In this document: piece after piece, positions 116-49,937 of the stretch
How the letters are laid out: each line of letters opens with the position of its first letter
Numbering within the stretch: the first letter of the stretch is position 1
Source of the DNA: a virus
Length of the DNA stretch: 49,937 bases
Direction: 5' to 3' (one strand)
Virus record (IMG/VR): IMGVR_UViG_3300047322_000435
Location: 1-49,937 of that record
Made by a program: the position numbers and the translations under genes
The notes under the pieces: generated by a model
The model's input: only the letters and a program-made list of their open reading frames with translations
Told to the model about the DNA's origin: nothing
Database searches by the model: none

Positions 116-1197
116 AGGCTGGCGAGGCTCAGGATGGCCAGGACGCCCCTGAGAGCGGCCAGGACGCCCCTGGCGCCGATGGCGAGGCTGGCGAGGCTCA
201 GGATGGCCAGGACGCCCCTGAGAGCGGCCAGGACGCCCCTGGCGCCGGTCACGACGATGGTTCGGAGACTTACAGCCTGGACGATGCGCCCGAAGCGAGC
301 GAAACCCTGGCCGAAGTCACGCAAGCCATCACGGAGCGCCAGGCGTCCGATGCGCCGAAGCCCATGGCCGGCGGCTTGCACGGGTATCGCAACGTGACCG
401 TGGCGTTGCCGTCCCATGTGTCACGCGCCGATCCCATGCCGCATGTCGCGGCATACAACGCGGCATTACCGGGACGCGCCGTGTTGCATGGCCAGATATC
501 GCGGTTGCTGGTCTCGCCGGAACGGGTGTCGGTGACACACCGCGAAACCTCGGGCCGGCTCGATCGCCGCGCCCTGGCGCGGCTTGGCACGGGAGCCCTG
601 GACGTATTCAGCCGGAAGCAAGAAACCCCCGGCATGGACACGGCGCTTCTGGTCCTGATTGACCTGTCATCGTCCATGCGCGGCGCGGCGCACGCCATGG
701 CCTGCGTGACCGCGTTTCACCTTGCCGCCGCCGCCGAAGATGCCGGCGCCAAGGTAGCGGTTCATGGTTTCATGGACCACGATGAACCCATGGACGTGGC
801 GACCGCCCGGATTGTGTGCCTGCTACCGTTCGGGATGCCGGTTCGCGCCAATGCTCATCGGATCATGGCGGTCCACCCGCATGTCACGACGCCACTGAGC
901 CCTGCCATTTTGGGTTGCGCCGAAGTGCTGCGAACGATTGACGCGACGCGGCGTGTCATGATGGTCCTGACCGATGGCGATTGTGACTACGGCAACGGCT
1001 GCGTGACCGATGCCTGCCTTGTCGCCAGGACGTGGGGCGTCGAGGTTGTCGGTTTGGGCATGGCCGCGCCACAGGTCGCGGCGGCTTTCCCCGATGGCCA
1101 CAGCGTCAATGTCCCGACCCTGGATGCACTGGGTCAAACCGGTTTGGGCGTGCTGGCGCGGATGCTTGAGGAAGCCGCGCCGGAGTTGGGCGCATGA
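1..1197 (+). CDS. Metallopeptidase-VWA (CobT-like) protein, C-terminal part
   Basis: This is the 3' part of the gene that starts at 49103; across the circular join the protein is about 638 aa. The frame is open from base 1. It begins with acidic repeats rich in D, G, E, A and Q (about 80 residues), then a spacer, then a von Willebrand factor A domain. The MIDAS motif is visible: DLSSS (D codon at 661), a Thr in TTPLS, and LTDGD near 970. The VWA domain should bind a divalent metal and a partner, by family analogy the AAA+ ATPase encoded just upstream. CobT of cobaltochelatase has the same acidic-linker plus VWA layout, but nothing else here suggests cobalamin synthesis. The downstream gene overlaps the stop by ATGA. 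Confidence 0.85.
   Translation, partial: DQDAPGADGEAGEAGEAQDGQDAPESGQDAPGADGEAGEAGEAQDGQDAPESGQDAPGADGEAGEAQDGQDAPESGQDAPGAGHDDGSETYSLDDAPEASETLAEVTQAITERQASDAPKPMAGGLHGYRNVTVALPSHVSRADPMPHVAAYNAALPGRAVLHGQISRLLVSPERVSVTHRETSGRLDRRALARLGTGALDVFSRKQETPGMDTALLVLIDLSSSMRGAAHAMACVTAFHLAAAAEDAGAKVAVHGFMDHDEPMDVATARIVCLLPFGMPVRANAHRIMAVHPHVTTPLSPAILGCAEVLRTIDATRRVMMVLTDGDCDYGNGCVTDACLVARTWGVEVVGLGMAAPQVAAAFPDGHSVNVPTLDALGQTGLGVLARMLEEAAPELGA
4..249 (+). repeat. In-frame 78-bp tandem repeat in the metallopeptidase-VWA gene
   Basis: Two 78-bp units (4-81, 82-159), a 69-bp unit lacking one GGCGAGGCT (160-228), and a partial unit (229-249). Each unit encodes about 26 residues alternating QDAPGADGEAGEA-type and QDGQDAPESG-type segments. 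The repeats keep frame, give a strongly acidic low-complexity linker between the protease and VWA domains, and vary by loss of a 9-bp sub-repeat, so the copy number is probably unstable. Confidence 0.9.
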
Positions 1198-8991: not shown

Positions 8992-9855
8992 ATGCCGAAA
9001 CAGGGACTTACCCCGGCGCCTCGACCCTACCAACTGGACGGCGTGAAGTTTGTGTTGGACGTTTTGTCCCCAGGACATACACACAACACACAGGTTGACA
9101 CGGCCCACATGGCCCACCGCGCGGCGATGCTCGCGGATGACCCGGGCCTGGGCAAGTCCCTGATGGCGATCCTGATCGCGAAGGCTTTGTTCGCGTCGCG
9201 CGTCCTGACCATCGCGCCGGCCATAGGCCGCGTGTCCTGGCCTTTGGAGATACGCAGGTGGTGGCCCGAGATGGCGCACTTCACGCGTATCCCGGCGCAC
9301 AACGCGTTCCCGGACAGCCTGTTGGACGACCGGATTTTCCTGATCCTGAGTTATGACACGTTTAGCCACGGCGCGAGTATGCGCCGCTGGAATGGTCCTC
9401 TGCGCGAACGCGCCTGGGACCTGCTGATCCTGGACGAAGCGCATTACCTCAAGGAAGGCTCGTCGAACCGCACGCGCGCCATCTATGGGGACAGGTTCGG
9501 GCACCGGGGCATCCAGTCCACGGCGAACCGCGTGTTGTTACTGACGGGTTCGCCCACGCCCAACCACGCGGCGGAGTTGTTTCCTCACTACCGCACGTTC
9601 TGGCCTGACCTGTTGCTGACCCCCGAGGGCAAGTCCCTGGGGCAGACGGATTTCGAGGAACGCTACACCAAATACACGGACGGCGCCTGGGGCCGCAGCA
9701 TCCACGGGTCTCAGGGCCAGGACGTTTTGCGCGAGGCGTTCGCGCCGGTCATCCTGCGGCGTCGGCGGCGCGACGTGCTGGGCGAACTTCCCCCATTGCA
9801 GGTCGAGGATGTGCCGTTGCTGGTTCGTCACGGTCCCGGGACCGGCGCGCCATGA
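8992..9855 (+). CDS. SNF2-family helicase, N-terminal (RecA1) part, 287 aa
   Basis: Contains motif I LADDPGLGKS (about 43-52), motif II LDEAH, and motif III LLLTGSPTPN of SNF2/SWI2-type ATPases, ending with LRRRRRDVLGELPPLQ, which normally begins the linker to the second RecA domain. The frame stops at 9853-9855, overlapping the ATG of the next ORF, which supplies the missing second domain. Phage homologues are normally one polypeptide of about 450-500 residues. This is either a natural two-subunit split or a single-base frameshift. Both parts look intact otherwise. Confidence 0.8.
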   Translation: MPKQGLTPAPRPYQLDGVKFVLDVLSPGHTHNTQVDTAHMAHRAAMLADDPGLGKSLMAILIAKALFASRVLTIAPAIGRVSWPLEIRRWWPEMAHFTRIPAHNAFPDSLLDDRIFLILSYDTFSHGASMRRWNGPLRERAWDLLILDEAHYLKEGSSNRTRAIYGDRFGHRGIQSTANRVLLLTGSPTPNHAAELFPHYRTFWPDLLLTPEGKSLGQTDFEERYTKYTDGAWGRSIHGSQGQDVLREAFAPVILRRRRRDVLGELPPLQVEDVPLLVRHGPGTGAP

Positions 9856-10463
9856 TCGCGCCCGGCCTGTCTCAGCGCGACATCACGGATCTGCTCATGG
9901 CCGTCCCGGTGGACGCGCTGCCCGAACTGTTACAGTCTGAAGAACTACATCTCGCGACCCTGCGGCGCATGCTGGGCGAGGCCAAGGCCGCGCCATCGGC
10001 TGCGTGGGCACGAGAAAAGCTAAATACCGGCGTCGATAAAATCCTGCTTTTCGCGTGGCACGTGGAGGTCATCGCCACGCTCGCCGACCTGTTACTGGAC
10101 TTTAACCCTGTAACCATCACGGGCGCCACGACGACCCGGGCCAGGACGGTCGCGGTTCGGAAGTTTCAGCACGATCCCGAGACCAGGGTTTTCGTGGGAC
10201 AGATCAAGGCGGCTGGGACGGCGATCACGCTCACCGCCGCCGCGCATATCGGCATCGTCGAACCAAGTTGGGTGCCAGGAGAGAACGAACAGGTCATCGC
10301 CCGTGCATGGCGGATGGGGCAGGTCCGTCCCGTGCTGGCGAGTTTCCTTTACGTGCCCGGATCGTTGGATCAGCGGATCATGCGTGCCTTTCGCCGTAAA
10401 GCCAGCGAACTCCTGCCCCTTTACGAAGCCGAAACATCATCTCATAGGGAAGGCGTCCAGTAA
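9852..10463 (+). CDS. SNF2-family helicase, C-terminal (RecA2) part, 203 aa
   Basis: Carries the helicase C-terminal motifs: KILLFAWHVEVI (motif IV region), VGQIKAAGTAITLTAA (motif V) and EQVIARAWRMGQ (motif VI with the arginine finger). The ATG overlaps the upstream stop (ATGA), so reinitiation would keep the halves in equal amounts. This frame is also open upstream of the ATG across the preceding 40-50 bases, so one inserted or deleted base would fuse the two ORFs. The stop overlaps the next ATG as TAATG. Confidence 0.78.
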   Translation: MIAPGLSQRDITDLLMAVPVDALPELLQSEELHLATLRRMLGEAKAAPSAAWAREKLNTGVDKILLFAWHVEVIATLADLLLDFNPVTITGATTTRARTVAVRKFQHDPETRVFVGQIKAAGTAITLTAAAHIGIVEPSWVPGENEQVIARAWRMGQVRPVLASFLYVPGSLDQRIMRAFRRKASELLPLYEAETSSHREGVQ

Positions 10464-16297: not shown

Positions 16298-19200
16298 TCA
16301 GCGAGCCTTGGCCGGCGGCTCGCCCTCGGTCTTGTAGTGGTGCCCGGATCTGAGCAGAGCGCCGACACCGCCTAGCGCCGCGCCGCCGGCCAGCAAGGGT
16401 TTACCCCAGCCAGGGACCACCCGCATGGCGGGCACCAGGATGTCGTCCGTCAGCCCGATCATCCAGGACGGCGGACCGCCGCCCACGCTTTCGCCCTTGG
16501 CCTGGGCCTGCTCCAGGTCGGTCAAGGGCAGGGGCTCCAGGGGCGGCGGCGCGAACGGGTCGGCGGACTCTTTCTTGATCTTGGTTCCGCGTGGCCCGGC
16601 GACGAAGTCGGTGAGCCCGCGCGTCACCGTGGGCGACGTGGCGGCGATGGACATGGCGCCGATCAACCCCGACAAGGGTCCGGCGGGAAGGCGGTTGGCC
16701 AGCCACGCCATGCTCGCCAACGCGCCCGGCTTCAGGGTCAGTTGGGTGAGCCCGTGGATGGCGTTGTAGGTCTCGGTGTTGGTGCCGTCGCTGGAGCCGC
16801 CGAAAGCGTGCATGACGCCCTTGATGATATCAATCATGTAACGCGTTTCGGTGGCGAGGTAGGGGCCTTCCACCAGGTTGCTCAGGTCCGCCGTGTAGCG
16901 CAGCGCGGTGAACGCCTGCCCCACGGCGGCGAGCGGTCCCAGCAGTCCCGACGCGTCAATCGTGGAGCCCAGTAGCCAATCAAACAGGTCGCCGTCGTCC
17001 TCGTGCTTTTGCCACGCCGCCTGATTGAACAGGTAGGAGCGCGGCGCGAACATCAGTCCGGTTCCGGCCAGCAGCGTGAGCCCGCCGATGGCGGTATGCA
17101 CCCAGGTCTTGAACCGCGCCGCCTCGGCCTGGAACCTCGCACTCGTGGGGCTCTCGCCCGCCGCGATCCGCCGGTCCCACTCGCGTTGCTTCGCCTGCGC
17201 CGCGCGGTGCATCGCCGGGTCCACGACGTTCCGCATGAACCCGTAGGGGAACGAGGTCAGCCCCGCGAGCATGTTCACCATGGGGTTGCGCAGCGCCCCC
17301 AGCGGCTTCTCAGCCGCCGTGGGGTCCTGGGACATGCGGTTGAGCATCCGGTTCGCGATGACCTCGAAGACCGGTCCCATCGGGTGGTTCTTGAGCGTGA
17401 CCCGGTCGGGCACATCATTGAACGGCCTCAACAGGTCCTTCAGACCCTCGAACTGGTGGTCCTGGGCATACCAGTCGTGCAGCAGAGTTTTGGCGTCCGC
17501 CTGTCGATCCAGTTGGCGGCGTGTCACCGCCGGGTCGGTCGCCAGATCCAGGAGTGTCTTGATATGCTGGGTGCCGGCGCCGTAGGTCGCCGCCCTGATC
17601 CAGCGCACCACCGGGGACAGCGCCAGTTCAAAATACCGGTGCATGAACTTCTCGATGGTCGGCGTGCCGGCGTAGTCGGTGTAGCGGGACGCGGCGGCGG
17701 CGCCCTGGAGGACTGAAGTGGTGCCGCCGATGGCGCGTATCCCCGCCATGCGCTCGGCGGCGCTCGGGGTGTGGAGCATGGCGCCGGCCATGCGCGTGAA
17801 CGTGCCGAACATCATCTTCGGGCTACCCCCCGCCAGGAGTGTCCCGAAGGGCTCGCCCACGGCGGATATGCTGGCGCCGGGCAGGAGCATGAGTTGACCC
17901 AGCGCCGAGACCATGTTGGTGGTGCGCTGCAAACCCGGGTCATTGTTGCCGCGCATCGACCGGCCCGTGACGGCTTCCACGACCTGACGGATGGGCGTGG
18001 AGAAGTTGCCGTTCATGCCGTGGTCCACCGCCTTGTCGATGGCGTTCTGGGTGGCCCGGCCATCCGCGCCGAACAACTCCGTGAACGCGATCTTGCGCGC
18101 GACGCCGTGCGCATAGTTGGGGAAGCTGGTGAGCATGTCCTTGTGCATCCAGTCCCGCATGATCTGGTCTGCTTCGGGCGGCAGGGTGCGGCCTTTGGTG
18201 AACCGGCTGTCCGGTCCCATGGTGGCGAAATCCAGGGGATCGCCCTTGGCGATGCGGTCCCACCAGTTCTGGGCTTCGTAATGCGCGATCTGGTCCCGGA
18301 TGTGCGTTACGTGTTCATCGTGGATGTCCAGGTTGTCCCGGACAAGCTGGTCCCGTTCGGCGCCGAGTTTGATGGGGTCGTGGGTGGTGGGGTTGACGCC
18401 GGCCCCGCCGGGTCCCGCCTTCAGTTCCTCGTCGATGGCCTTGATCCGGTTCAGGTTCTTACCCAGTTGGGCCATCGCGTCGCGCGCGTCCTGGCTGAAC
18501 ATCGGCGTGTCCCGCTCCGGGGTTTCCCGCCACCACTGGTAAAGACGTTCCGGCTTGTCTTCGTCGGGCCGAAGGTTCTGGCGCTCCCTGGGGTCGGTGA
18601 ACTTCATGTCGTTATCAAAAATGAACTGGTTGAGCCGGGTGCGGTCCCGGGTCGAACCCTCCTTGTCGTTGCGGATCGCGCGGTCATCGAACACGCGGGA
18701 CACATGGCCGCTGGCGTAGCCGGTGTCCTCCAGGCCCTCGGTGCCGACGATCTGGTCGTGCAGCCGGTCCTCGATGAACCGGGTCTTTTCCGCCGCCGCC
18801 AGGATGTTCTCCGGGATCGGCTTGCGCGGCCCGATGCCTGTAAGGTCGTGGGCGTTCAGCGGGTAGGTCGTCTCCCCGGTCTGCATCGTGTGCCGGAACA
18901 TGGCGTTCTGTTCCGGGTTCATGTAGGCCCGTCCGGTCAACCGGCTTTTCAGCCCGGCGTCTTTCAGCGCGTCCTCCCACTCGGACACGACGGGGTTGCC
19001 CCGGTGCTTGATACGTTCCTCGAAACTCTCGTCCACGGGCCGGCCCGATCCGGGCGCTGACCCCAGCTTGTCCCGGATGCCCTGGATGAAAGGCCGCGCG
19101 GCGGGGTTCATCTGCTTAATCATCCGGTCCAGGTTGCCCAGGGCCGAGTTCCAGGTCATGGCGAGGTCGTCGGCGCGTTGCACGCCCAGGGTCTTGGGTG

Positions 19201-22200
19201 TCGCCACGCCGGTCTTCTTCGCCGCGCGGGTGCTGTAATCCAGGGGCGCCGGAGTGGCGTTGGGGTCTTTGAACAGGGGCTCGTGTTCGCCCTTGACGAG
19301 GTTGCTCCAACGCAAGGCGCTCAGGTCGTTACGGACGGATGTCAGGAACCCGGGCCTGATATCCGCCGGGCGCTCCGACCAGGGCCTGAGCGTGTGCGCT
19401 TCGGTCGTGCGTCCCGCCGGGGGCTGGCCCTGGCTCAACGTGCTGGCGCGCTCCATCTCCGTGACCAGTTGGTCGAACGCGTGGAACATGTCCATGCGGT
19501 CGATCCAGTTCGGATAGCGGTGGCGGATCTCGGCCAGGGCGCGGTCCTGGTAGGCTTTGTTGGATTTGACCACGCCCGCCGGGTCCATGCTCGCCGCTTC
19601 CATGCGGTAGGCGGTGTAGGCTTCGCCCACCCGTGCGAACAGTTCGTGATGGCTGGCCCAGTATTGCGGGTTGGGACCGCGCAAAGCCTCGGTCCGCAGG
19701 TCGGACGGCCCGATGCGCAGTTTCGACGCGCCCTTGTCCAGGTTCTCGATTTCAGCCCGCGCCAACAGCGCGCTCGTGGTGGGCCGGCCCGCCTTGGTCA
19801 TCTTCATGGCGGTCTGCTCAAGTCTCAGCCGGCGCAGCATTTCCTCGCCCCGGTTGTAGGACATGGCGTTCAGCACGCGGACGAACGCGCTTTGCACGGG
19901 GTCCTTGGGGTCCAGCGCGCCGTCCCTCGCACTCCAGGTCAGTAACTGCTGTTTGTTCGGATTATTGTGCAGCAGATCGGTCATATAGTCGTCGATGGCG
20001 TGCCAATGCTCGTGCGCGTAGCTGTTGGAACCGCCTGAAATGTGAATGGTCTTGTCCGCGAAACTGTAGCTGCCATACCAGTTTTCGCCCTTGAAGTTGT
20101 AGGGCACCAGATGCAGGCCCAGGCGCCCGTTCAACGCGACGGTTTCCTGACTCCAGCCCAGCGCGTGGGCCATGTTTTGCATATTGTGATGGACGTTCAG
20201 CAGCCAATCGCGCGTGATCTTCGGCTCCACGGCGGGATGCGTCCGGGTCTTGCCGTCCGGCGTGACCGTGACCGTGCGGGGTTCAAGATCGACGTTGGTG
20301 AAACCGTATTTGGCCTTGAGTTGATCGGCCAGGATCTTGTTCTGTTCCAGGATGGGCCGGTTGGTGAAGGTCTTCGGGTTGATCCCGGTCCCGCGCAAGG
20401 CTTCCTCGGGCGCGTCGCGGTAAGCGGACGTGCCCCTGCTGTAGGCGTAGTCCTCCATGGTGAGCGGATCGCCCGGGTGGGGCGTGACCACGGGTTCGCC
20501 CGGGGGTTTGGCGCGGACGCGGTTCGGTGTCGGCTCGGGCTCGCCCGGCGCCGGGGCTTTACGGCGGAAACCGGCGCGGGACTCCAGGGTGCCGGGCGCT
20601 TCCTGGTCCGCCAGGAGTGCCGCCGGGGTTGTTCCCGGTGCGTTCACTCCCTGTGCGGAAGTCTCGGGTTCCCCGGCGGTCGCGGCGGCGCGTTCCTGTT
20701 CCACCCACTTAACGAGGCGGTCCCGCCATGTCTCGCCCGGCTTCAGGGGGTCCTTGGAGCCCGTCGAAAGGGCGTCGCGGTAGGCTTCGTCGGGGGCGTT
20801 GGCGCGGTCCAGTTCGCCCAGCTTATAGGCGGGCGTGCCTGGGGTTTCGTGCGCGGGGGTATTTTTGTCCGGGGGTTCGGCTTGTCCCGGGACAGGTTCA
20901 CGCTGTCCCGGGACCGCTGTGGGCTCTACCCTTGGGGCGGCGGGTTCCGGGGCAGGAGGGGCTGGCCCTTCCACTCCAGCGGGTCGAACTTCGCCGGGAC
21001 GGGTTTCATCCACGGGAATAGTTCCAACTGGACGGGCGGTCGGCTCCATACCAGGACGGGCGGTTTCCGCGCCGGTCGGGACAGCGGCGGGCGGTTCGGG
21101 AATAACAGGGGCGGCGGCGGGCTCGCCGGGACGGGGTTGGGCTGTGGTGGCATTCGGGGGTGTCTCCCTTGGTGGTATGGGTGGAGGCTCAGGCGTCGGC
21201 GTCGTGATCGGCACGGCCTCGCCCGGCGCCACGCCCTCGGGCGGGGGACGGACCAGATCGGTGAAAGGCGTGGGTCGCGGTGGAATGTCTGTGCTGGTTG
21301 GCGCTGGGCCTGTCGGTGCTATCGACGGTGACGTGTCTGGTCCTGCTGGGATGGCTGTCTCACCGGATGTGGTAGGCGGGCCCATGATCCGCCGGCCAAG
21401 CTGGGGACCGTAGTGCATGACGCCCCCGGCGATGCCGCCGCCGATGGCGTTCTGCACGGCGCCCTCGGCCAGTTCGCCCAGGCCGGGCGTGGGCTGACCC
21501 GTGATCGCCGGGTCGATCACGCCTTGCTTGACGACGCCGGTTCCGGGACCCGTGACCAGGGTGTGGAACAGCAGGTCCTTGATGACGGATTTGAAGGGGC
21601 TGAGCCCGAACAAGGGCGCGGTGACGCCCGTGAAAGCACCTGACGCGCCGGCCATCTTGTAGGCTTCGTCGACCGCTTCATCCTGCGTGGCGCCCCGCCT
21701 GATGGCGTCCTGGTAGGCCGGGACAAGGCTTTGCACGAAGTCGGTCACGCCGCCCCCGGCGGCGCCGCCCAGGGCACCTCCAACCGCCGTGCCGAAGCCC
21801 GGTTCGATGGCGGTCCCCGCCGCGCCGCCGCCCGCCGCGCCCAGCACCATGCCGGCCAGCGTGGGGAACGAGTGCCCCAGCCCGTAGCCCACGCCGCCCA
21901 TGAAAGTGCGTTCAGGCTGTTCCTGGACGTTGGCGGGGTTGAAGCCTTCACCCGTGGCGAGTTGCCCGGCTTCGCGGCCTGACGCGCCGATCCCGCCGAA
22001 CAGGGAGGATAAAAACCCCACGGGCTCGGACGTGGACGGCGCCGGTTGCGCCGCCGGTCCCAGCGGGACCAGCTTGTCGAAGTCAGGCAGTTCAACCGGT
22101 GGTTGGGCCTGTGCCTGGGGCTGGGGCTGCGCCACCGGTCCCAGCGGGACCAGCTTGTCGAAGTCCGGCAGCGGCACCGGGGGCTGGGGTTGTGTCTGCG

Positions 22201-22318
22201 CCTGGGGCTGGGACTGGGGCTGGATCGGCTGCGCCGCTTGCCCCAAGGGAACCAGCTTGTCGAAGTCAGGTAGTTCTACCCCCGGCGTCGAACTGGTGTC
22301 GTCCAGCGGCGGCGGCAT
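16298..22318 (-). CDS. Giant internal virion / ejection protein with metallopeptidase-like motif (2006 aa)
   Basis: Probable DNA-ejection protein by size and position at the end of the internal-protein cluster. The N terminus has three copies of LPDFDKLVPLG separated by Gln/Pro spacers within the first 100 residues. A Gly/Ala-rich hydrophobic segment follows (TLAGMVLGAAGGGAAG). A long Pro/Glu-rich region leads to a domain with HEHWH at 769-773, an HExxH zinc-binding motif in the SYAHEHWHAIDDYM context of large polyvalent phage proteins. The C-terminal half is mostly helical with hydrophobic stretches (GGLTLLAGTGLMF). Comparable to T7 gp16 or N4-like giant proteins in role, not clearly in sequence. 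Confidence 0.75.
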   Translation of the reverse strand: MPPPLDDTSSTPGVELPDFDKLVPLGQAAQPIQPQSQPQAQTQPQPPVPLPDFDKLVPLGPVAQPQPQAQAQPPVELPDFDKLVPLGPAAQPAPSTSEPVGFLSSLFGGIGASGREAGQLATGEGFNPANVQEQPERTFMGGVGYGLGHSFPTLAGMVLGAAGGGAAGTAIEPGFGTAVGGALGGAAGGGVTDFVQSLVPAYQDAIRRGATQDEAVDEAYKMAGASGAFTGVTAPLFGLSPFKSVIKDLLFHTLVTGPGTGVVKQGVIDPAITGQPTPGLGELAEGAVQNAIGGGIAGGVMHYGPQLGRRIMGPPTTSGETAIPAGPDTSPSIAPTGPAPTSTDIPPRPTPFTDLVRPPPEGVAPGEAVPITTPTPEPPPIPPRETPPNATTAQPRPGEPAAAPVIPEPPAAVPTGAETARPGMEPTARPVGTIPVDETRPGEVRPAGVEGPAPPAPEPAAPRVEPTAVPGQREPVPGQAEPPDKNTPAHETPGTPAYKLGELDRANAPDEAYRDALSTGSKDPLKPGETWRDRLVKWVEQERAAATAGEPETSAQGVNAPGTTPAALLADQEAPGTLESRAGFRRKAPAPGEPEPTPNRVRAKPPGEPVVTPHPGDPLTMEDYAYSRGTSAYRDAPEEALRGTGINPKTFTNRPILEQNKILADQLKAKYGFTNVDLEPRTVTVTPDGKTRTHPAVEPKITRDWLLNVHHNMQNMAHALGWSQETVALNGRLGLHLVPYNFKGENWYGSYSFADKTIHISGGSNSYAHEHWHAIDDYMTDLLHNNPNKQQLLTWSARDGALDPKDPVQSAFVRVLNAMSYNRGEEMLRRLRLEQTAMKMTKAGRPTTSALLARAEIENLDKGASKLRIGPSDLRTEALRGPNPQYWASHHELFARVGEAYTAYRMEAASMDPAGVVKSNKAYQDRALAEIRHRYPNWIDRMDMFHAFDQLVTEMERASTLSQGQPPAGRTTEAHTLRPWSERPADIRPGFLTSVRNDLSALRWSNLVKGEHEPLFKDPNATPAPLDYSTRAAKKTGVATPKTLGVQRADDLAMTWNSALGNLDRMIKQMNPAARPFIQGIRDKLGSAPGSGRPVDESFEERIKHRGNPVVSEWEDALKDAGLKSRLTGRAYMNPEQNAMFRHTMQTGETTYPLNAHDLTGIGPRKPIPENILAAAEKTRFIEDRLHDQIVGTEGLEDTGYASGHVSRVFDDRAIRNDKEGSTRDRTRLNQFIFDNDMKFTDPRERQNLRPDEDKPERLYQWWRETPERDTPMFSQDARDAMAQLGKNLNRIKAIDEELKAGPGGAGVNPTTHDPIKLGAERDQLVRDNLDIHDEHVTHIRDQIAHYEAQNWWDRIAKGDPLDFATMGPDSRFTKGRTLPPEADQIMRDWMHKDMLTSFPNYAHGVARKIAFTELFGADGRATQNAIDKAVDHGMNGNFSTPIRQVVEAVTGRSMRGNNDPGLQRTTNMVSALGQLMLLPGASISAVGEPFGTLLAGGSPKMMFGTFTRMAGAMLHTPSAAERMAGIRAIGGTTSVLQGAAAASRYTDYAGTPTIEKFMHRYFELALSPVVRWIRAATYGAGTQHIKTLLDLATDPAVTRRQLDRQADAKTLLHDWYAQDHQFEGLKDLLRPFNDVPDRVTLKNHPMGPVFEVIANRMLNRMSQDPTAAEKPLGALRNPMVNMLAGLTSFPYGFMRNVVDPAMHRAAQAKQREWDRRIAAGESPTSARFQAEAARFKTWVHTAIGGLTLLAGTGLMFAPRSYLFNQAAWQKHEDDGDLFDWLLGSTIDASGLLGPLAAVGQAFTALRYTADLSNLVEGPYLATETRYMIDIIKGVMHAFGGSSDGTNTETYNAIHGLTQLTLKPGALASMAWLANRLPAGPLSGLIGAMSIAATSPTVTRGLTDFVAGPRGTKIKKESADPFAPPPLEPLPLTDLEQAQAKGESVGGGPPSWMIGLTDDILVPAMRVVPGWGKPLLAGGAALGGVGALLRSGHHYKTEGEPPAKAR
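22066..22290 (-). repeat. Triplicated LPDFDKLVPLG-coding repeat
   Basis: Three near-identical DNA segments encode LPDFDKLVPLG with Gln/Pro/Ala spacers near the N terminus of the giant virion protein. The shared core on the + strand reads ACCAGCTTGTCGAAGTC. They may be docking peptides for another virion protein or copies of a processing site. Confidence 0.8.
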
Positions 22319-41428: not shown

Positions 41429-43818
41429 GCGACCCTCACTTGTACGACGCTGCCGTTGCGGTAAAGGCCGCCCACCGGCACGCCGCCGGTCGCCGCCGCC
41501 GCGTCGTTGGCATACGATGCGCTGGTCTGAAGCGTTGCCATCAGGATGGCGCCGGTCGAACGGGTAATACTAAACGGAGCATCTATCGTGTTCCCGGCGT
41601 CATTGCTCCGGTAGATGTAAAAGTTACCACCCGCGTTGCCGGAACTCTCCCCGCCACTCACCAGAATATCGAACCGAGGCACGCCCAGCGTCGTGTATCT
41701 TACCGATCTGGTGAGATTATGTGGCCCATCCAGGCCCCACACCGTATTGGCTGTCGTGGTGCCATAGCCAAGAACGCCGCCCTGATAATACAGCCGCAGC
41801 ATTCGCACCATGTTGGCGTCATCGCCGGTATCGTTCCCTTGGTTCGCGATATAAGTGTCCAGATAGGGATTGCCCCATGACGTGGTCACGAACCCGGCTC
41901 GCAGCGATGCCGCGATGCGCGGTGCGGTATCAGTGCCGACTGGGAAGGCACCCATAAGCCGTAATTTGCCCTCTTTCGCATTAATCGATGTGGGACTGAG
42001 CGTAAGCTGCGCTGTGGTCGGTGTGTCGGCTTCCGTGAAGAAGCTGGCACCGTTGGTGTACGTAACCGTGGACGGCCCGCGGTTTTCGTAACGGCCCAAT
42101 GGCCCGATCCCCTGAAGCAACCAGCCGTTGAATTCCACGTTGACGATGGCGTTCATCGCGTTGTCGGTCAGAACGAAGCCAGCCGCGCCGGGTGTCGGCG
42201 GAATGACAAACACACTGTCGCTCACCCGCACGGAACCGGCGGTCTGTATCAGATAAGCGACGGCACGCGCGGTCGAGCTATCAAAGCGCATCTGTTTGAT
42301 ATCAAGGTTGCCGCCAGTTACCCGGATCATGGCGTTGACCCCCGTTACGCCATCCCACATGTAACCGCTGTTTATCGTCAGCGTCCCGTTCGATAGCGTG
42401 ACGGACGGATTACCCTGCGCCAGAGACAAAAGGCACGACGCGATATCGACGGTGCAACCGCCATCGATCACGAGCGGTATGCCAACGCCGTCGTTCCCTC
42501 CCGTGCTGTAGAAGTTACCTAACTGTAGCCAACCTCCGCCGCCGGCATGAATGTTCAGGTTGGAGTTGCTGCCGTCCATGCTCAACCGGTTAATGGCACC
42601 CCAGGACCACGATGCGGTCACGTTGAGGATACCGCACCACGACTGGAACGTATCGCAAACAAAGTCGTCGCATCTGCCAATGTTGGCGGCGACGGTTTGC
42701 CCGTCATAGTAAACGCCGAACATGGCCGGGGAGTTGTCGAACCCCCAGCCCCATAGCATGAAACGCTCCATCTTTGGGAAGTTGTAGCACTGGTCTATAT
42801 CCAGCCCGATATTCAGGCAGCCGACGAAGTATTGCCCGATATCGAAGGTCGAGCCTCGGATATAAACGCCGTTCCACGCGCCGCCGATCAGGACGTGGTC
42901 GATACGCACGGTTTCGGAAACCGCGTAGATCGCCCATGGATACTGTATCGCGGCGGCGGCTGGCGATAGTGTCGGGTTGGTGGACAAGGCCACGGCCTGG
43001 GAGCGGTTACACGCGAACGACACCGTCTCCCCGGCGTTCACCGTGCCGACATGCGGCTGAGACAAGGTGATGACGTTGCCCGCGATACTGACGACCTTCG
43101 GCATCAATGACTGGAATTGCATTGAGTTAGGATTGGGAATGTTCCGACAGTAAAATCCCGTCAGGATACCCGCCGTGTTCGCCACCGTGATGGTGGTCGT
43201 TCCGCCCGCCGATGCCGCTGTCGTCGTGGTTGTCAGGTCTGGCGGTTGCTCAAACTGAATACGCAAATCGTGTATCGCTGGTTGCGCGTAGTTCTTGTTG
43301 CCCGACACCGTGACGATGACGCCGGGAGCTGAGCGGGAAAACGCCGGACCCACAAGCAGGACGGTTGACCAGCCATCGCCAAACAGGCTTTGCGCGTGGT
43401 TCTGGTCGCCGACGGGCAGGGGTTGGTTGATCCGATAAGTCCCGGCGGGCGCGTAAACATCGGCGGGTATGCCATTCCGTCTTACCGCCAGTGCTTGCGT
43501 GAAGGCCGCGCTGCTGTCCGCCACGCCGGTCGGATCGGCGCCGAAGTCCAGCACGTTCGCCACGTCCCCGGCCCGGTCCTGCGCCGAACGCGCCACGGTG
43601 CCCCCGGTGGCCGTATAGTTGAGCGGACCGGTCATGGAACCACCCGTCAGCGGCAGATACGTCCCGCTGGCGATCCCGGCCCCGGTGTCGATCACCAGTT
43701 GCTGGCCCGCCGGGTCCACCGACAACGGCACGCCCGCCCATATCTTGCCTGGGGCCACCGACGTGTCCCAGTAGAATTGCTGTGGGAGCAAAGACTTAGC
43801 CGGGGGTGGCGCGCTCAT
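41425..43818 (-). CDS. Tail spike with pectate-lyase-like beta-helix (797 aa)
   Basis: Likely a polysaccharide-degrading receptor-binding spike. The N terminus (YLPLTGGSMTGPLNYTATGG) carries the same short repeat type found in the tail fibre gene upstream. Residues 88-105 (VLDFGADPTGVADSSAAF) are the opening of the pectate-lyase superfamily beta-helix, followed by an NHAQSLFGDGWSTVLL-type coil and dozens of Asn/Gly-turn repeats. The last 250 residues probably form a trimerisation and beta-sandwich domain. The catalytic residues cannot be pinned down by eye. It may function alongside the S74 fibre. Confidence 0.82.
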   Translation of the reverse strand: MSAPPPAKSLLPQQFYWDTSVAPGKIWAGVPLSVDPAGQQLVIDTGAGIASGTYLPLTGGSMTGPLNYTATGGTVARSAQDRAGDVANVLDFGADPTGVADSSAAFTQALAVRRNGIPADVYAPAGTYRINQPLPVGDQNHAQSLFGDGWSTVLLVGPAFSRSAPGVIVTVSGNKNYAQPAIHDLRIQFEQPPDLTTTTTAASAGGTTTITVANTAGILTGFYCRNIPNPNSMQFQSLMPKVVSIAGNVITLSQPHVGTVNAGETVSFACNRSQAVALSTNPTLSPAAAAIQYPWAIYAVSETVRIDHVLIGGAWNGVYIRGSTFDIGQYFVGCLNIGLDIDQCYNFPKMERFMLWGWGFDNSPAMFGVYYDGQTVAANIGRCDDFVCDTFQSWCGILNVTASWSWGAINRLSMDGSNSNLNIHAGGGGWLQLGNFYSTGGNDGVGIPLVIDGGCTVDIASCLLSLAQGNPSVTLSNGTLTINSGYMWDGVTGVNAMIRVTGGNLDIKQMRFDSSTARAVAYLIQTAGSVRVSDSVFVIPPTPGAAGFVLTDNAMNAIVNVEFNGWLLQGIGPLGRYENRGPSTVTYTNGASFFTEADTPTTAQLTLSPTSINAKEGKLRLMGAFPVGTDTAPRIAASLRAGFVTTSWGNPYLDTYIANQGNDTGDDANMVRMLRLYYQGGVLGYGTTTANTVWGLDGPHNLTRSVRYTTLGVPRFDILVSGGESSGNAGGNFYIYRSNDAGNTIDAPFSITRSTGAILMATLQTSASYANDAAAATGGVPVGGLYRNGSVVQVRVA

Positions 43819-46265
43819 GGCATGGCTCCGTCTTCGGCGCGCCAGCCCGGCGGCGGCGTCATTATCGCGTCGATCCGCGCACTGAGTTCCTTCACCGCGT
43901 TCACCAGGGCGGCGATGATCGTGTCGGTCGTGATCCCCAGGATCGGGTCGTCGCTGGCGCGCGACCCGGGACCGTCTTTCGCCGCCGTGCCGACCGCGAT
44001 CACGGCTTCCGGCAGGACCGACGCCAGTTGCTGGGCCGAGAAGCCAATTTCCTCCCGTTCCCGGTCCTTTCGCCGGAACCGGATCGGCTTAATCTCCAGG
44101 ACCGCCGCGAGCCCCACGGTGGCGGGCTCGATATGGGTCTTGATCCGTTCGTCGGATGTGTTGACGTAACCGCCGTTGCCATACCAAGGGCCAAGCCAGT
44201 TGATACCGCGATAGTTCGGCGGCGTCGGGTCAACGTCGAACTCGATGAAAGACCCGACGCTGTAGGCGTTCCATATCAGGCTGCCGGTCGGGGCATCCCA
44301 GGTCCACGACCAGCTATTGGCGAAGGCATAAACCCGCTGGTTGCCCGACTGATACATCTGCTGCGTGCCGTCACCGATCTGCGAGGCGGTGCCGGCGCGC
44401 ACGTAATTACAATACAGCGTGGCCGTCGTGATATCGCCGGTCGTGGACAGGCTGCCGGCGCTCAGTGCCCCGGTAACAGTCGCGCTGCCAGCGCTCAGTG
44501 CCCCGGTAACAGTCGCGCTGCCGGCGCTCAGTGCCCCGGTAACAGTCGCGCTGCCGTTGGTGGAAAGGCTGGCGCCCCCCACGTTGCCGTGCGCGCCGAT
44601 GTTGCCCGCTCCGTCGATGACGAACAGAGCGGTATTATCGCTGCCGCGGATGTATTGCATCGCGCCGTTAGAGCGCGTGTATTGCCAGCGCCAGTTGGCG
44701 CCGTCCTGATACAAATAAGTGTAGCTGGCGTCTGATACGAACGTCGCGCGGGATAAGTTGAGAGTAACCACGCCGTTGGAATAGACGTTACCGCCCTCGA
44801 AATTACCATTGACAAACAGCGCGCCCGTGACAGTGCCCCCGGCGAGCGGCAAATACCCGCCGGCTTTGGTATCGACATACTGCCGTGTCGCCGCGCCCAG
44901 AGGCACGGTCGGGTCCGCCGCCAGGACCAGAGGTCCGGTCAGCGTGTCACCGCCCACATTCACCCAGCGGGTGTCGCCCTGGGCCGTAGTCAGGAAATTG
45001 GCGTCAAGCCATTGTTTCGGCACGGCATGAAGCGGCGCGGTCGGGTTCGCGCTGAGCGTCAGAAAACCGGTCATCACGCCCCCGGCCAAGGGCAGTTTCG
45101 TGTCGGCGTATTGCCTTGTCGCCGCGCCCAAAGGCGCCACGGGGTCCGCCGCCAGGACCAGAGGTCCCGTCAGGGTTCCCCCGGCGAACGTCAGGTATTT
45201 CCCGTCAGCGTATTGCCTCGTCACGGGCTGCAAAGGCCCCGCCGGGTCCGCCGCCAGGGTAATGGCGCCGGTCATGGTCCCGCCGACCAGGGGCAGATAG
45301 ACATTCGCCGCGACAGACGCGCCCTCGACCTGGATCTGCACGATGTCCCCCGCCGCGCGCGGCTGGGCGAAGGTCACGGTGTTCGTGGTCCCGGCGAAGT
45401 CGGTCACCGGGGTCCGGGCGAGGCCGTTGGCGTAGACCATCAAGGTTTGCTGCGGTCCCGGCGCGTACGCCAGCACCTGGCCGTCACGGTCGGCGCCCGT
45501 GAAAACCGTCTGCCCGGCGACGGCGACGTACGTATAATGATAGACGACGGCCAGAGGCGGGATCGTCAGCAGCAGGCTCTCCATCTCGGAGAGGGTTTCC
45601 GCCGCCCGGTTCGCCCACCAGCGGGACGACCAGTGGTCCCCGGTAACCGCCTGAACCGCCAGGATATTTGGCGGGATCGTGTCCGGCATGTGTTCGGCCC
45701 AGGCCATGCCCACGTCGGCATACGCCTGGGCGACGGCTTCGCTGCCGTCGGCGTGGTTCGCCGAGGTAATGGCGCTCGACGCGCTGGCCGAAGCGGCGTT
45801 CGCGCTGCCCTGAGCCGAAGTCGCCGCGCCCTGGGCCGTCGTGGCCGATGCCTGGGCGTTCGTCGCGGCCTGCCCGGCGGCGGTTGAACTGCCTGAAGCC
45901 AGAGACGAGTAAGTCAACGCCGCGTTGGCCGAACCCAGCGCCTGAGTAGCATAACTCCCAGCCTGATCTACCAGGGGTTGCACCTGCTCGACGGCATCGT
46001 TGGCGATAAAGTCGAACAGTCCCGGCACAAGCTGGGGTTCTCCGACTATCCCGGTACGAAGCGTGCCATCCGTGTTGAGCGAAGTCCCAACCCAATCAAG
46101 GGTTTGGCTCTGGGTGGCGTTACCACGGTCGAACTCGGCGTCGAGCCGATCCCCTGGCGGCGGGGCGGTCGGGTTGTTCACCTGCCAGTTGGTGAACGAG
46201 TACTGCCGTACGGGGGGAACGGGCTCCGGGGCCACGAGTTTGCCGGGTACAGGGCCGTCAGGCAT
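43815..46265 (-). CDS. Tail fibre with C-terminal S74 chaperone domain (816 aa)
   Basis: The N-terminal part (YSFTNWQVNNPTAPPPGDRL, then EFDRGNATQSQTLDWVG) is a typical virion-attachment domain. Ala/Ser-rich coiled-coil stretches follow, then four or more YLPLAGGTMTG-type repeats paired with LAADPxxPLxxxTRQYxD segments, and a triplicated SATVTGALSAG. The C terminus NTSDERIKTHIEPATVGL, then IGFSAQQLASVLPEAV is the peptidase S74 intramolecular chaperone, which trimerises the fibre and cleaves itself at the Ser before DERIK. Start ATG 46265 (MPDGP) was chosen over a longer frame. Confidence 0.87.
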   Translation of the reverse strand: MPDGPVPGKLVAPEPVPPVRQYSFTNWQVNNPTAPPPGDRLDAEFDRGNATQSQTLDWVGTSLNTDGTLRTGIVGEPQLVPGLFDFIANDAVEQVQPLVDQAGSYATQALGSANAALTYSSLASGSSTAAGQAATNAQASATTAQGAATSAQGSANAASASASSAITSANHADGSEAVAQAYADVGMAWAEHMPDTIPPNILAVQAVTGDHWSSRWWANRAAETLSEMESLLLTIPPLAVVYHYTYVAVAGQTVFTGADRDGQVLAYAPGPQQTLMVYANGLARTPVTDFAGTTNTVTFAQPRAAGDIVQIQVEGASVAANVYLPLVGGTMTGAITLAADPAGPLQPVTRQYADGKYLTFAGGTLTGPLVLAADPVAPLGAATRQYADTKLPLAGGVMTGFLTLSANPTAPLHAVPKQWLDANFLTTAQGDTRWVNVGGDTLTGPLVLAADPTVPLGAATRQYVDTKAGGYLPLAGGTVTGALFVNGNFEGGNVYSNGVVTLNLSRATFVSDASYTYLYQDGANWRWQYTRSNGAMQYIRGSDNTALFVIDGAGNIGAHGNVGGASLSTNGSATVTGALSAGSATVTGALSAGSATVTGALSAGSLSTTGDITTATLYCNYVRAGTASQIGDGTQQMYQSGNQRVYAFANSWSWTWDAPTGSLIWNAYSVGSFIEFDVDPTPPNYRGINWLGPWYGNGGYVNTSDERIKTHIEPATVGLAAVLEIKPIRFRRKDREREEIGFSAQQLASVLPEAVIAVGTAAKDGPGSRASDDPILGITTDTIIAALVNAVKELSARIDAIMTPPPGWRAEDGAMP
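44452..44550 (-). repeat. 33-bp in-frame tandem repeat (three copies) in the tail fibre
   Basis: Units at 44452-44484, 44485-44517 and 44518-44550 encode SATVTGALSAG. One G/A difference separates copy 2 from the others. Slippage would change the length of the fibre by 11 residues per unit without breaking the frame. Confidence 0.9.
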
Positions 46266-46617
46266 ACGCTGTGTCCCCCGAGTTGGGTGCGTGTTTCGCC
46301 TGTAGGCGCTTTGTTTGCCCAACACCAGCCCTTATGCGACGGGCGCTCAACGCGAGGTTGAGAGCACGCCCGGCACGCTCGCGTTTCGCGATCAGCCCAC
46401 GGCACCCCAAAATCGTTCGCTCAGCAGCACTATCAACCCAGCGTAACCAGCGCGAGACCGAAACGAAAGTCCCAGCGATTTCAACTAGCTGTGCAAACCA
46501 GTGAGAGGAAAATGCGATCCGGGCGCGGACCCCCCGGGGGGCGGACGGCCCGGGGCCGGGACGCGCCAGGACCGCGCCACGGTTCGGCATGAACTGGGAC
46601 GGTCCCTGTCTTATCAA
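46258..46617 (-). CDS. Doubtful ORF upstream of the tail fibre (119 aa)
   Basis: Open frame whose stop overlaps the tail fibre start by 8 bases. The sequence is Arg/Ala-rich (ERTILGCRGLIAKRERAGRAL, LSARRIRAGVG) with no domain pattern, and the region holds a hairpin and a GC palindrome. It may be a real coupled gene, a decayed one, or noise. Confidence 0.25.
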   Translation of the reverse strand: MIRQGPSQFMPNRGAVLARPGPGPSAPRGVRARIAFSSHWFAQLVEIAGTFVSVSRWLRWVDSAAERTILGCRGLIAKRERAGRALNLALSARRIRAGVGQTKRLQAKHAPNSGDTAYA

Positions 46618-46661: not shown

Positions 46662-46985
46662 TTACGCCACCCGGGACCTGAGCCGGGACAGCTCCTGAGC
46701 CAGCTCCTCACGTGTCAGCTCGTCAATGGGTGTCTCGCCGGTCCTGTCGGGCTTCGCCTGATGCCTACCTAATAAACCCTGGATTTCCGCCAATGTTCGC
46801 GCTGCCGAAGCTCTTGCCTGCGCTCCAGCGTTAGGATCGTTAGCCAGTTTTGTCAGTATGGCTGCCACAGACACAGTATGTCCCGGGACCCTGTCAACGG
46901 AGCTTGTCCCGGGTATCCCGCGTGTCCCGTTGGTCCCGCGTTGTCCTGTCCCGGCTGTCCCGGCTGTCCCGCGTGATTTCGTCAT
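46662..46985 (-). CDS. Small terminase-like protein (107 aa, tentative)
   Basis: Start ATG 46985 overlaps the stop of the next gene upstream (ATGA). A collagen-like Gly/Thr-rich N terminus (GTAGTAGTGQRGTNGTRG) is followed by a helical part, SVAAILTKLANDPNAGAQARASAARTLAEIQGLLGRHQ, and a final ELTREELAQELSRLRSRVA-type helix. This helical pattern resembles small terminase subunits of some tailed phages. The 5' DNA contains a cluster of GTCCCG repeats that could be a packaging site. Distance from terL (7 kb) is unusual. Confidence 0.45.
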   Translation of the reverse strand: MTKSRGTAGTAGTGQRGTNGTRGIPGTSSVDRVPGHTVSVAAILTKLANDPNAGAQARASAARTLAEIQGLLGRHQAKPDRTGETPIDELTREELAQELSRLRSRVA

Positions 46986-47401
46986 AGGTTGGCCACCGCT
47001 TCCCGCGCCGCGCGCCAAACCCTCGCCCACGCCAGGGGTTCACTGTCCCGGCTGTCCCACGCCAGGACAAGCGCCAGGCGCAATGGCTCCCGCTTCGCCC
47101 ATGCGATGGGCGCCATGTCCCGCCATCCTGGCGTGGCCATGAGTTCCACTGGCAAGAGGCCACGTCTGTGCATTTGAGCCAGGACACGCCGCGCCATGCG
47201 TCCCGGCGTGTCCTGGCGCCGCCGCGTGTCGTGTATCCGGCAAAGCGCGATACCGCGCATGGCCGCTTGTCGGCAGCGAACGCATCGCCGGATAGCCGGC
47301 GACGCGATGGACACGCGATGCTTGTCCAATGCGGCGAGGCTATTGGGATGGCCGCGCCATCCCCCAAGGTTCGGGTGTCTCACCGTGTTGGGCTCGCTCA
47401 T
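46982..47401 (-). CDS. Zinc-ribbon protein (139 aa)
   Basis: Start ATG 47401 (MSEPNTVRHPNLGGWRGHPNSLAAL). The middle has CVRC then ALCRIHDTRRRQDTPGR, a short Cys/His zinc-binding pattern (C-x2-C-x(n)-C-x2-H) like those of small phage proteins found beside terminase genes. The C-terminal half is helical and Trp/Arg-rich. First gene of the leftward late operon, divergent from the AAA+ gene. Confidence 0.6.
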   Translation of the reverse strand: MSEPNTVRHPNLGGWRGHPNSLAALDKHRVSIASPAIRRCVRCRQAAMRGIALCRIHDTRRRQDTPGRMARRVLAQMHRRGLLPVELMATPGWRDMAPIAWAKREPLRLALVLAWDSRDSEPLAWARVWRAAREAVANL

Positions 47402-47550
47402 GGCGCGAGTGTGCTGGTCCTGAAGAAAAACACAAGCGGGACCATGTTTGTTGTTGTGTTTCGCTTGCGTGGCGCTATGTGTGCGTTTCGCCTTGCCTTG
47501 ACTGTCCTGCACCCCAACGAAACACCCCAACGGAAAGCACACCCCATACA
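47402..47550. promoter_or_regulatory. Divergent intergenic region between late and AAA+/VWA operons
   Basis: 149 bases between divergent starts. It contains the inverted repeat AAACACAA (47428-47435) / TTGTGTTT (47454-47461), followed by CGCTTGCG. A TTGACT at 47507 could be a -35 for the + strand operon, but the -10 is not convincing. Promoters for both operons are expected here from gene layout. Confidence 0.5.
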
Positions 47551-49098
47551 ATGACAACCGCTACACCTAGCGCCGTTTGGCGTACCGCCATGCGCGCCGC
47601 GTTGCGCGACCGGCTCGCCAATGCCGCGCCCGATGATATCGACGCGCAAGCCGCGCGCCTGAACCTCAACGGGCGGCTTATCAATAACCTCACGAAAGCC
47701 GATTTACGCGGCTTGCTGCGCATCGCCGGCATTGATCCGATGATGCTGCACCCCTCGCACACACCCGGAGAAGCGCCGATGGCCGAAGGTGCGATAACCG
47801 ATACCGATGATGACGACCGGGACCTGATGACGCCGCCGGCTGATACCGACGCCGCCGCGCCCGCATCGGTCCCGGCTGATAATGATGACGACGCCGCCGC
47901 CATTGAAGCGACGGTCCAGGCCGTTCGCGCCGATATCATGGGCGGAGGCTTCGCCGCTCTTGACCAACGGCTCCGGGACCTCGTCGTGGCCGCGCGCAAG
48001 CCGGCGGTCATCAAGACGGTCACAAAGACCGTAACCGTTGAAGTCGAACGCGACCAGGACACGACAACGCCGCGCGCCGCGCCCACGGATGCCACCGTGA
48101 CATGGCGTAAGGCGTTTGGCGTGCGCGGTGCTCTTGGAAACGAAACAGCAACGGTATGGGATGGCGCGCACCCGGACACGCCGTGCGTCAATGATCGTTA
48201 CGTGTGGCCGGCGGAAACCGCGATCGCGCTCACAGAGATCCGGCGCGGTCACAATGTCATGCTTTTTGGTCCCAAGGGCACGGGCAAGACGGAGTTCGCG
48301 CAGCAAGTCGCCGCGCGGCTTGGGCGTCCCTTCGTGCTGGTTTCCTGTGATGCCAGCACGGACGCCGCCACGCTGGTGGGCATGACCGTGCCGGCCCGGG
48401 ACGGTAAAGGCGTGTCGTTTCAACCGGGACAACTCGTGCGCGCCATCCAAACCCCTGGCGCGGTCATTTGCATTGACGAACCCTCAATCGCACGCCCGGG
48501 CGCGTTGTTCGCGTTGCAGAATGTTTTGACCGCCAATCGCAGCCTTTACGTCCAGGAAACGGGACAGAAGGTGAAGGTCGCCCCTGGCGTGATTTTCTTC
48601 GCCACCGATAACACAAGCGGCATGGGCGGGGGTTCCAGGGTCGGCTACCACGGGACACAGGCGCTCAACGCCGCGACCCTGGACCGTTTCGGGGTTAGGA
48701 TCAAACTAGGCTGGCACGCGCCAGACGTTGAGGCGGGGATTATCGTTTCGTATGTCCCTGGCTGCACGATTGAACTGGCCAACCTCTTGGTGCAGGCTGC
48801 GACCACGACCCGCGCGGCGGCTGATAGTCAGGTTCTCACCGAGGGACTTGGTTTGCGCCGGTTGTTCGCGTGGGCGGGACTGCTTGCTGATGGCCATGAT
48901 CCTGAAATCGCGTTCCGTTGCGCCGTGCAAAACTGTGTCCCGGACGGCGAACAAGAAGCGTTGCGGCAACAGTGCTTGCTTGCCGTGGACAAGAACACTG
49001 TTCGCGCCGCGTTGAACCCGACCGCGCCGGTCCCGTCATCATCGCCCGCCGCTTCTGACTTTGACCCGGTTTCGCCTGACAATGGCGAGGGGAGCTAA
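47551..49098 (+). CDS. MoxR/CobS-like AAA+ ATPase (515 aa)
   Basis: Start ATG 47551 with GGAAAG about 14 bases upstream; the longer frame to 47329 overlaps the divergent promoter region. Residues 1-190 contain an acidic, Ala-rich linker (EGAITDTDDDDRDLM) and a coiled-coil patch. The AAA+ module begins at RRGHNVMLFGPKGTGKTEFA (Walker A 240-247), then Walker B VICIDE (about 305-310), sensor 1 FFATDN and LDRFGVRIKL (sensor/arginine region), as in MoxR and CobS proteins. Gene pairs of this ATPase with a VWA protein are a known functional module; the VWA protein follows 4 bases downstream. Confidence 0.88.
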   Translation: MTTATPSAVWRTAMRAALRDRLANAAPDDIDAQAARLNLNGRLINNLTKADLRGLLRIAGIDPMMLHPSHTPGEAPMAEGAITDTDDDDRDLMTPPADTDAAAPASVPADNDDDAAAIEATVQAVRADIMGGGFAALDQRLRDLVVAARKPAVIKTVTKTVTVEVERDQDTTTPRAAPTDATVTWRKAFGVRGALGNETATVWDGAHPDTPCVNDRYVWPAETAIALTEIRRGHNVMLFGPKGTGKTEFAQQVAARLGRPFVLVSCDASTDAATLVGMTVPARDGKGVSFQPGQLVRAIQTPGAVICIDEPSIARPGALFALQNVLTANRSLYVQETGQKVKVAPGVIFFATDNTSGMGGGSRVGYHGTQALNAATLDRFGVRIKLGWHAPDVEAGIIVSYVPGCTIELANLLVQAATTTRAAADSQVLTEGLGLRRLFAWAGLLADGHDPEIAFRCAVQNCVPDGEQEALRQQCLLAVDKNTVRAALNPTAPVPSSSPAASDFDPVSPDNGEGS

Positions 49099-49102
49099 GA
49101 CC

Positions 49103-49937
49103 ATGGCAAATACGCTTTACCTTGAAGTAACCGCCGCCGCCGCTGAGACCGCCGGTAAAATCATCGCGCAACGTAAGGGACAGAATAACCGTCCCGCGCG
49201 CGTGACCGTGGGCGCCAAAGGTGGCGCCACCGCATCGGTCCAGGTCAACGGCTCGCATGTGCTTATGAACCTTCCAAGCCTGCCGGCGTCCACCGTGTTG
49301 AGCCGCGTTGAGGCTGACCGCATGTTAGGCTTCGTGGCGCACGAGTGCCTACACGTACTGCACACGGACTGGCAATGGTGGCACCATTGCGTGCAAGCCG
49401 GCGCCCGGGTGCGGCATTGGGCCAACTGTTTGGAAGATGTCCGCATTGAGGCAAAGGAACTCCGCGCGGGTGTTTTTCCGGCTCTGCGCGGCATCCTGTC
49501 CGCGACCACCGATCATGTTCACTACCAGGGTTTGACGCGCGCCGCGAAAGACGGTCGCGCCATCGGCGCCAGGATTGCCGACGCGCCCTATTGCGTGGCG
49601 ATTTTGGGCAGGATGGCCAACCGCTACACGGTGCCCACGGCGCGCGGCTTGCGTGGCGCGTTGCACCCGGACGTGGCGCGGCTTGTCGATCGCGCGCTTG
49701 CCGAAGTGAAATCCTGCCGGTCAACGCATGACGTTTACAGTCTGGCCATGCGCATGGTGGACCTGGAACGCCAGATTATCGCCGCGAACGCACCGCCCCC
49801 GCCACCGCCCACGCCACCGGAGGATCAGGACGCCCCTGGCGCCGATGGCGAGGCTGGCGAGGCTGGCGAGGCTCAGGATGGCCAGGACGCCCCTGAGAGC
49901 GGCCAGGACGCCCCTGGCGCCGATGGCGAGGCTGGCG
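49103..49937 (+). CDS. Metallopeptidase-VWA (CobT-like) protein, N-terminal part
   Basis: The start ATG lies 4 bases after the stop of the AAA+ gene, with GAGGGGAG as ribosome-binding site, so the two are translationally coupled. An HExxH zinc-protease motif, HECLH, is at residues 80-84 in a helix that follows an AD-RMLGFVA segment. This resembles the putative metallopeptidase domain found N-terminal to VWA-like domains (DUF2201 type). A Pro-rich stretch (PPPPPPTPPE) near residue 230 leads into the acidic repeats, and the protein continues at base 1. The zinc-peptidase plus VWA architecture, next to a MoxR-type ATPase, suggests an ATP-driven remodelling or proteolysis machine. The substrate is unknown. 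Confidence 0.85.
   Translation, partial: MANTLYLEVTAAAAETAGKIIAQRKGQNNRPARVTVGAKGGATASVQVNGSHVLMNLPSLPASTVLSRVEADRMLGFVAHECLHVLHTDWQWWHHCVQAGARVRHWANCLEDVRIEAKELRAGVFPALRGILSATTDHVHYQGLTRAAKDGRAIGARIADAPYCVAILGRMANRYTVPTARGLRGALHPDVARLVDRALAEVKSCRSTHDVYSLAMRMVDLERQIIAANAPPPPPPTPPEDQDAPGADGEAGEAGEAQDGQDAPESGQDAPGADGEAG
49823..49937. repeat. Terminal direct repeat, right copy (circular overlap)
   Basis: Exact copy of bases 1-115. It starts 720 bases (240 codons) into the gene that begins at 49103, and the codon phase here matches the phase of the open frame at base 1. Both copies lie in the region encoding Asp/Gly/Glu/Ala-rich repeats, so the true number of repeat units could be miscounted by short-read assembly. 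Confidence 0.85.

Follow-up and report, generated by a model that had tools for sequence, protein, structure and literature searches.

The virus record IMGVR_UViG_3300047322_000435 consists of 49,937 bases, and this whole stretch of DNA is called the window below. It encodes a MoxR/CobS-type AAA+ ATPase and an adjoining protein with an N-terminal HExxH domain, an acidic linker and a VWA domain. The pair is a member of a family that is widespread in phages and annotated as CobS/CobT. What we add here is that the zinc site looks live in the phage proteins but has been lost in true CobT, and that the pair has a replication neighbourhood in relatives. We did not find the contrast between the two sites stated in the literature that we searched, from which most subscription papers fell outside.

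The ATPase gene and its three-domain partner

The ATPase ORF (47551-49098, plus strand) is separated by 4 bases from the ATG of the second gene at 49103, as claimed in the first-pass annotation of this DNA. That annotation also carried the second gene across the contig join. The single gene is real; the direct end-to-end join, however, is out of frame: straight joining of the last base to base 1 leads into stops and was dropped. The record has an exact terminal repeat of 115 bp (1-115 = 49823-49937), which lies inside the acidic tandem repeat of the second gene. When this terminal repeat was collapsed, the second gene became one open frame of 638 aa on the plus strand, comprising a 5′ part (49103-49937, encoding residues 1-278 and the first base of codon 279) and a 3′ part (116-1197). 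Unbroken homologues are present in two related contigs, L002 (about 662 aa) and L013 (668 aa), and possess the N-domain, repeats and VWA domain as in the window. Therefore, the two halves are one gene. Because several related contigs likewise end at the same point of this gene, the break at the record end looks like an assembly artefact caused by the repeat. Purifying selection acts on all three domains (dN/dS = 0.09-0.16 against relatives); thus, the gene is not a chance frame. The elements ascribed to the protein at first, HECLH, acidic tandem repeats and a VWA domain with MIDAS, are all present in its sequence.

The first gene encodes a CobS/NorQ-like MoxR-clade AAA+ ATPase of 515 aa. An AAA_5 domain occupies residues 235-380 (68.6 bits) and a CbbQ/NorQ C-terminal region (CbbQ_C) residues 397-467 (32.4 bits). 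The protein matches phrog_249 (E 3.8e-46) and the CobS structure 9ujv (E 1.7e-26), and it also matches NorQ and CbbQ structures. These domain and structure matches bear out the earlier proposal of a MoxR/CobS-type ATPase with a VWA partner. The Walker A motif GPKGTGKT (residues 240-247; 48268-48291, plus strand) was located in the sequence and in alignment A2, in which the Walker B acidic pair D309-E310 of ICIDEP (48475-48480, plus strand) is invariant. In the ATPase tree, whose deep branches are weak, the cellular CobS rows form one tight 100/99 clade without the window protein. The window ATPase groups with those of metagenomic phages and Microcystis phage Mae-Yong1326-1, in a part where several deep forks are weak and some branches are long.

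In the second protein, the N-terminal domain is followed by an acidic/proline linker that contains the tandem repeat (49793-49937 and, after the collapse, 116-246, plus strand). TRF reported a 78-bp unit in 3.2 copies with 93% match, and the true copy number is uncertain because the 115-bp terminal duplication falls inside the repeat. An acidic linker is also present in true CobT. The acidic repeats are a local expansion of this shared linker, and what sets them apart here is only their tandem-repeat form. The C-terminal VWA/MIDAS domain (364-1197, plus strand) is CobT_C-like (PF11775; 25.9 bits, over the cut-off of 21). Its model (pLDDT 70.8) is nearest to the NorD VWA domain in NorQ-NorD complexes (Foldseek E 3.6e-14), and the Rea1/Midasin MIDAS domain comes next. 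In alignment A5, the D, S and S of the MIDAS motif DLSSS (residues 461-465; 661-675, plus strand) are invariant, as are D204 and G205 of the domain, which belong to the distal DGD (residues 565-567; 973-981, plus strand).

A predicted zinc site that cellular CobT has lost

The N-terminal zincin-like domain comprises 231 aa (49103-49795, plus strand). The AlphaFold2 model of this domain had a pLDDT of 88.9 and a pTM of 0.86. Two motifs are located in helices of the model: HECLH (residues 80-84; 49340-49354, plus strand), the predicted zinc-binding and catalytic motif, and NCLEDVRIE (residues 108-116; 49424-49450, plus strand), the predicted third-ligand helix. We aligned 27 N-domains (alignment A3) from contigs that were found by scanning and that are mostly about 20% identical to the window N-domain. 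The invariant residues were H80, E81, H84, N108, E111, D112, E116 and P126. Apart from P126, these columns appear to be almost exactly a gluzincin-type zincin site. In A3 and in the model helices, HExxH is accompanied by a downstream putative Glu ligand on the following helix, as in gluzincins. Furthermore, all 78 of 78 unique phage rows possess HExxH and then EDxxxE. These rows come from four sets retrieved with single queries; some of the search patterns overlapped the ED motif and none overlapped HExxH. In a separate alignment of diverse phage N-domains, 9/11 possess HExxH. Thus, the metallopeptidase motif noticed at first sight is kept across relatives.

A Foldseek search of the N-domain against PDB gave no solved structure at E ≤ 0.001; the Foldseek matches were viral VWA proteins labelled CobT and similar. 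With VIA-align, the minigluzincins selecase and jannalysin were among the better rows (Z 5.0-5.5, where Z under 8 can be chance). These weak matches were nearly full length (103-105 of about 110 residues). A PDB search with the N-domain sequence alone gave nothing at E ≤ 1, and one with the profile of alignment A1, which had been left out of scanning because it is too diverse, gave chance matches only.

Three relatives have lost the HExxH motif: Stenotrophomonas phage BUCTxx99, Pseudomonas phage hairong and an Acinetobacter plasmid. In Methylobacterium pAMS5a, the protein as annotated is without the N-domain. Peptidase activity is thus not required in every case. In a Photobacterium protein (L044), a sequence HEYYH is located just before the VWA domain, off the zincin position, and was not counted. 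A short version of the protein (553 aa, with HEVAH, DMSGS and little linker) is encoded in Oligoflexales contig L033 (8205-9866); our genome-collection scan gave a single distant locus, from Oligoflexales. Because RmuC is encoded nearby, as is a histone-deacetylase-like protein, a chromosomal, non-phage copy may exist.

For comparison, we used the cellular CobT proteins of Sinorhizobium, Sphingomonas, Cereibacter and Pandoraea, whose genes lie beside or near cobS. HExxH was not found in these four. The phage and true CobT N-domain profiles align with an hhalign probability of 64% (E 6.4e-5), and this alignment pairs GFVAHECLHVLHTD of the phage proteins with GLGDSMALRKACHD of cellular CobT. In other words, H/E/H is replaced by S/M/R. 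The third-ligand motif LEDVRIE of the phage proteins is aligned with VEQARVE. The Pfam CobT family PF06213 matched 9/27 phage N-domains at E ≤ 0.01 and gave no match to the window protein. The two N-domains are thus homologous, and that of cellular CobT has the appearance of a dead zincin.

Genes around the pair

A DNA polymerase III alpha gene is located beside or near the pair in Rhizobium, Klebsiella, Stenotrophomonas, Pseudomonas, Methylobacterium and E. coli elements. Clamp and clamp-loader genes are near it in cyanophages, and primase, helicase and DNA polymerase genes in Cobavirinae and ICP2; this evidence is a tally of chosen genomes and carries no statistic. In ICP2, the stretch from 0.5 to 25 kb consists of unlabelled genes that share one strand, whereas the pair belongs to an opposite-strand block with replication genes. 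The long unlabelled block should be the structural genes. Mae-Yong1326-1 is laid out like the window, and its pair is outside the leftward capsid/portal/terminase block. In the window, the nearest conserved large downstream gene is an opposite-strand primase gene. These neighbours point to an early or replication block over virion processing.

Three small plus-strand ORFs come after the VWA gene (1194-1394, 1408-1527 and 1524-1799), the first of which begins within the VWA stop (ATGA). The first-pass annotation counted a membrane peptide (1408-1527) and a Tudor-like protein (1524-1799) as possible parts of the module. We could not uphold this: the three ORFs are near-identical in L002 and replaced or altered in other close relatives, and the Tudor match (E 0.067) is below the cut-off. 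On the other side, a minus-strand ORF (46982-47557), divergent from the ATPase gene, shows 43-64% conservation among those related contigs that extend over the region. Its true start is probably internal, and Pfam and PHROG gave no match for it.

A second architecture was also observed, in which CobS-like ATPases are followed by a partner of 280-303 aa without HExxH or MIDAS (L052 5763-6674, L054 5759-6601 and L032 4950-5858). Two of these partners match DUF7192, and the third has ssb and bet as neighbours in an ICE-type island.

Elsewhere in the window, two overlapping neighbour ORFs (8992-9855 and 9852-10463, plus strand) match successive parts of the helicase family phrog_62, and they represent a split gene or a frameshift. 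A 2006-aa ORF (16298-22318, minus strand) contains an 81-bp tandem repeat close to its beginning and matches a structural protein only weakly. A tail-fibre-like ORF of 836 aa (43815-46325, minus strand) contains a 33-bp repeat at 44451-44556, and its C-terminus, by a sequence reading only, resembles an intramolecular chaperone.

Proposed function and alternatives

We propose, with about even confidence, that the pair forms an ATP-driven machine, not a chelatase, which grips a protein via the VWA/MIDAS domain and, at an early stage of infection, remodels or cleaves it. Ring assembly, docking, proteolysis, target and timing are what we infer. If the pair works like NorQ-NorD and CobS-CobT, the ATPase would form a hexameric ring, and the VWA/MIDAS domain would dock on this ring and grip the target protein. 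The movement would be relayed by the acidic linker, which would also deliver the target to the N-terminal gluzincin-like peptidase for cutting or clipping. The machine may act in the early or replication phase of infection, with a protein of the phage or of the host as its target. Because the phage proteins keep a peptidase site that the true B12 enzyme lost, reshaping or cutting of a protein is the more likely activity. We searched the literature on the timing of cyanophage cobS transcription and found nothing. A wider idea is offered tentatively, and we think it rather unlikely to hold: viral "CobST" may be a widespread AAA+/VWA metalloprotease replication machine, and cellular CobST may be a later offshoot with a dead protease, whose motor came to serve in metal insertion.

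The same proteins might instead be an assembly chaperone with processing activity, in which the motor and peptidase mature structural proteins of the virion. The same domain architecture occurs in group 2.2 jumbo phages (Iyer 2021, PMC7824862), and a precedent is cited there from the Acidianus two-tailed virus, in which there is no peptidase domain. We judge this possibility to be unlikely. In ICP2 and Mae-Yong1326-1, the pair and the structural genes are in different blocks, and in many lineages the pair adjoins DNA polymerase, clamp or primase genes. Moreover, the related CobS-like ATPase beside ssb and bet, with its other partner, is in an island with conjugation genes. A role in defence or anti-defence, such as superinfection exclusion or cleavage of a host defence protein, seems still less probable. 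The phage is temperate (it has an integrase), and MoxR-vWA modules are found in predicted conflict systems (PMC7159879). However, the PADLOC matches (models up to 2023) were weak and limited to short P-loop stretches, and no third component was found. The pair is also widespread in tailed phages and is among the cyanophage core genes (PMC8651126, PMC3037559); therefore, a general infection function suits it better than a variable defence gene.

It has been proposed that phage CobS/CobT act with host CobN as an auxiliary cobaltochelatase and raise the cobalamin supply (Liu 2021, PMC8651126). Both proteins are homologous to CobS and CobT, and the N-domain, acidic linker and VWA domain are arranged in CobT-like order. 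Nevertheless, we consider this explanation very doubtful. The ATPase scored 99.6 bits against the CobS equivalog TIGR01650 (cut-off 558.55), and the C-terminal part of the partner 22.4 bits against the CobT equivalog TIGR01651 (cut-off 759.05), the two parts of the gene being scored apart. The cellular CobS clade excludes the window ATPase, and true CobT is without the HExxH that the phage rows keep. An E. coli phage-plasmid possesses the pair, with HEVAH and LEDVFIE. The CobN model TIGR02257 found nothing within our record and nothing in an E. coli control genome, which is distinct from the host chromosome of the phage-plasmid. Because the zinc site is retained, the equivalog cut-offs are missed widely and the pair occurs in E. 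coli with a CobN-less control genome, vitamin B12 synthesis is unlikely for the phage family as a whole. The first-pass annotation had doubted cobalt chelation because no other cobalamin gene is present; the doubt stands, now on these grounds.

Comparison with known systems

Viral cobST has been reported in eight host orders, with hijacking of CobN for vitamin B12 proposed, and cobT was said to be "mistakenly annotated as a peptidase" (Liu 2021, PMC8651126). Phage cobS and cobT are counted as auxiliary metabolic genes for cobalamin, and cobS is called a cyanophage core gene (PMC8651126, PMC3037559). Because the zinc site is retained in the phage proteins and lost in true CobT, our results suggest that, for many phage cobS/cobT proteins, annotation as a peptidase may have been correct and assignment to B12 mistaken.

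The window pair shares with the phage cobST pairs (phrog_249/phrog_1576) an adjoining CobS-like ATPase and a CobT-like protein of N-domain, linker and VWA domain. Among isolates, its closest relative is Microcystis phage Mae-Yong1326-1, which shares its gene order; where they align, the two proteins are 38% and 46% identical. In contrast to these pairs, the window linker is expanded to near-identical tandem repeats, and the window sequence is otherwise distant from the cyanophage and Rhizobium phage members. The jumbo-phage pair (ASV44728/ASV44729), for which virion assembly was proposed, likewise consists of a MoxR/CobS-type AAA+ gene beside a vWA gene with an N-terminal HExxH domain (Iyer 2021, PMC7824862). 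This likeness is by published description, and the pair here is in a 50-kb temperate phage. With NorQ-NorD and CbbQ-CbbO, the window shares the NorD-like VWA model and the ATPase matches to NorQ and CbbQ structures, whereas the matched NorD VWA chains are without a peptidase domain and these systems have another cellular role. Finally, the ATPase, VWA domain and N-domain are homologous to those of cellular CobS/CobT, and both systems have the acidic linker. They differ in that HExxH has been lost in cellular CobT, the window proteins are under both equivalog cut-offs, and the cellular cobaltochelatase has a CobN subunit that the phage record lacks.
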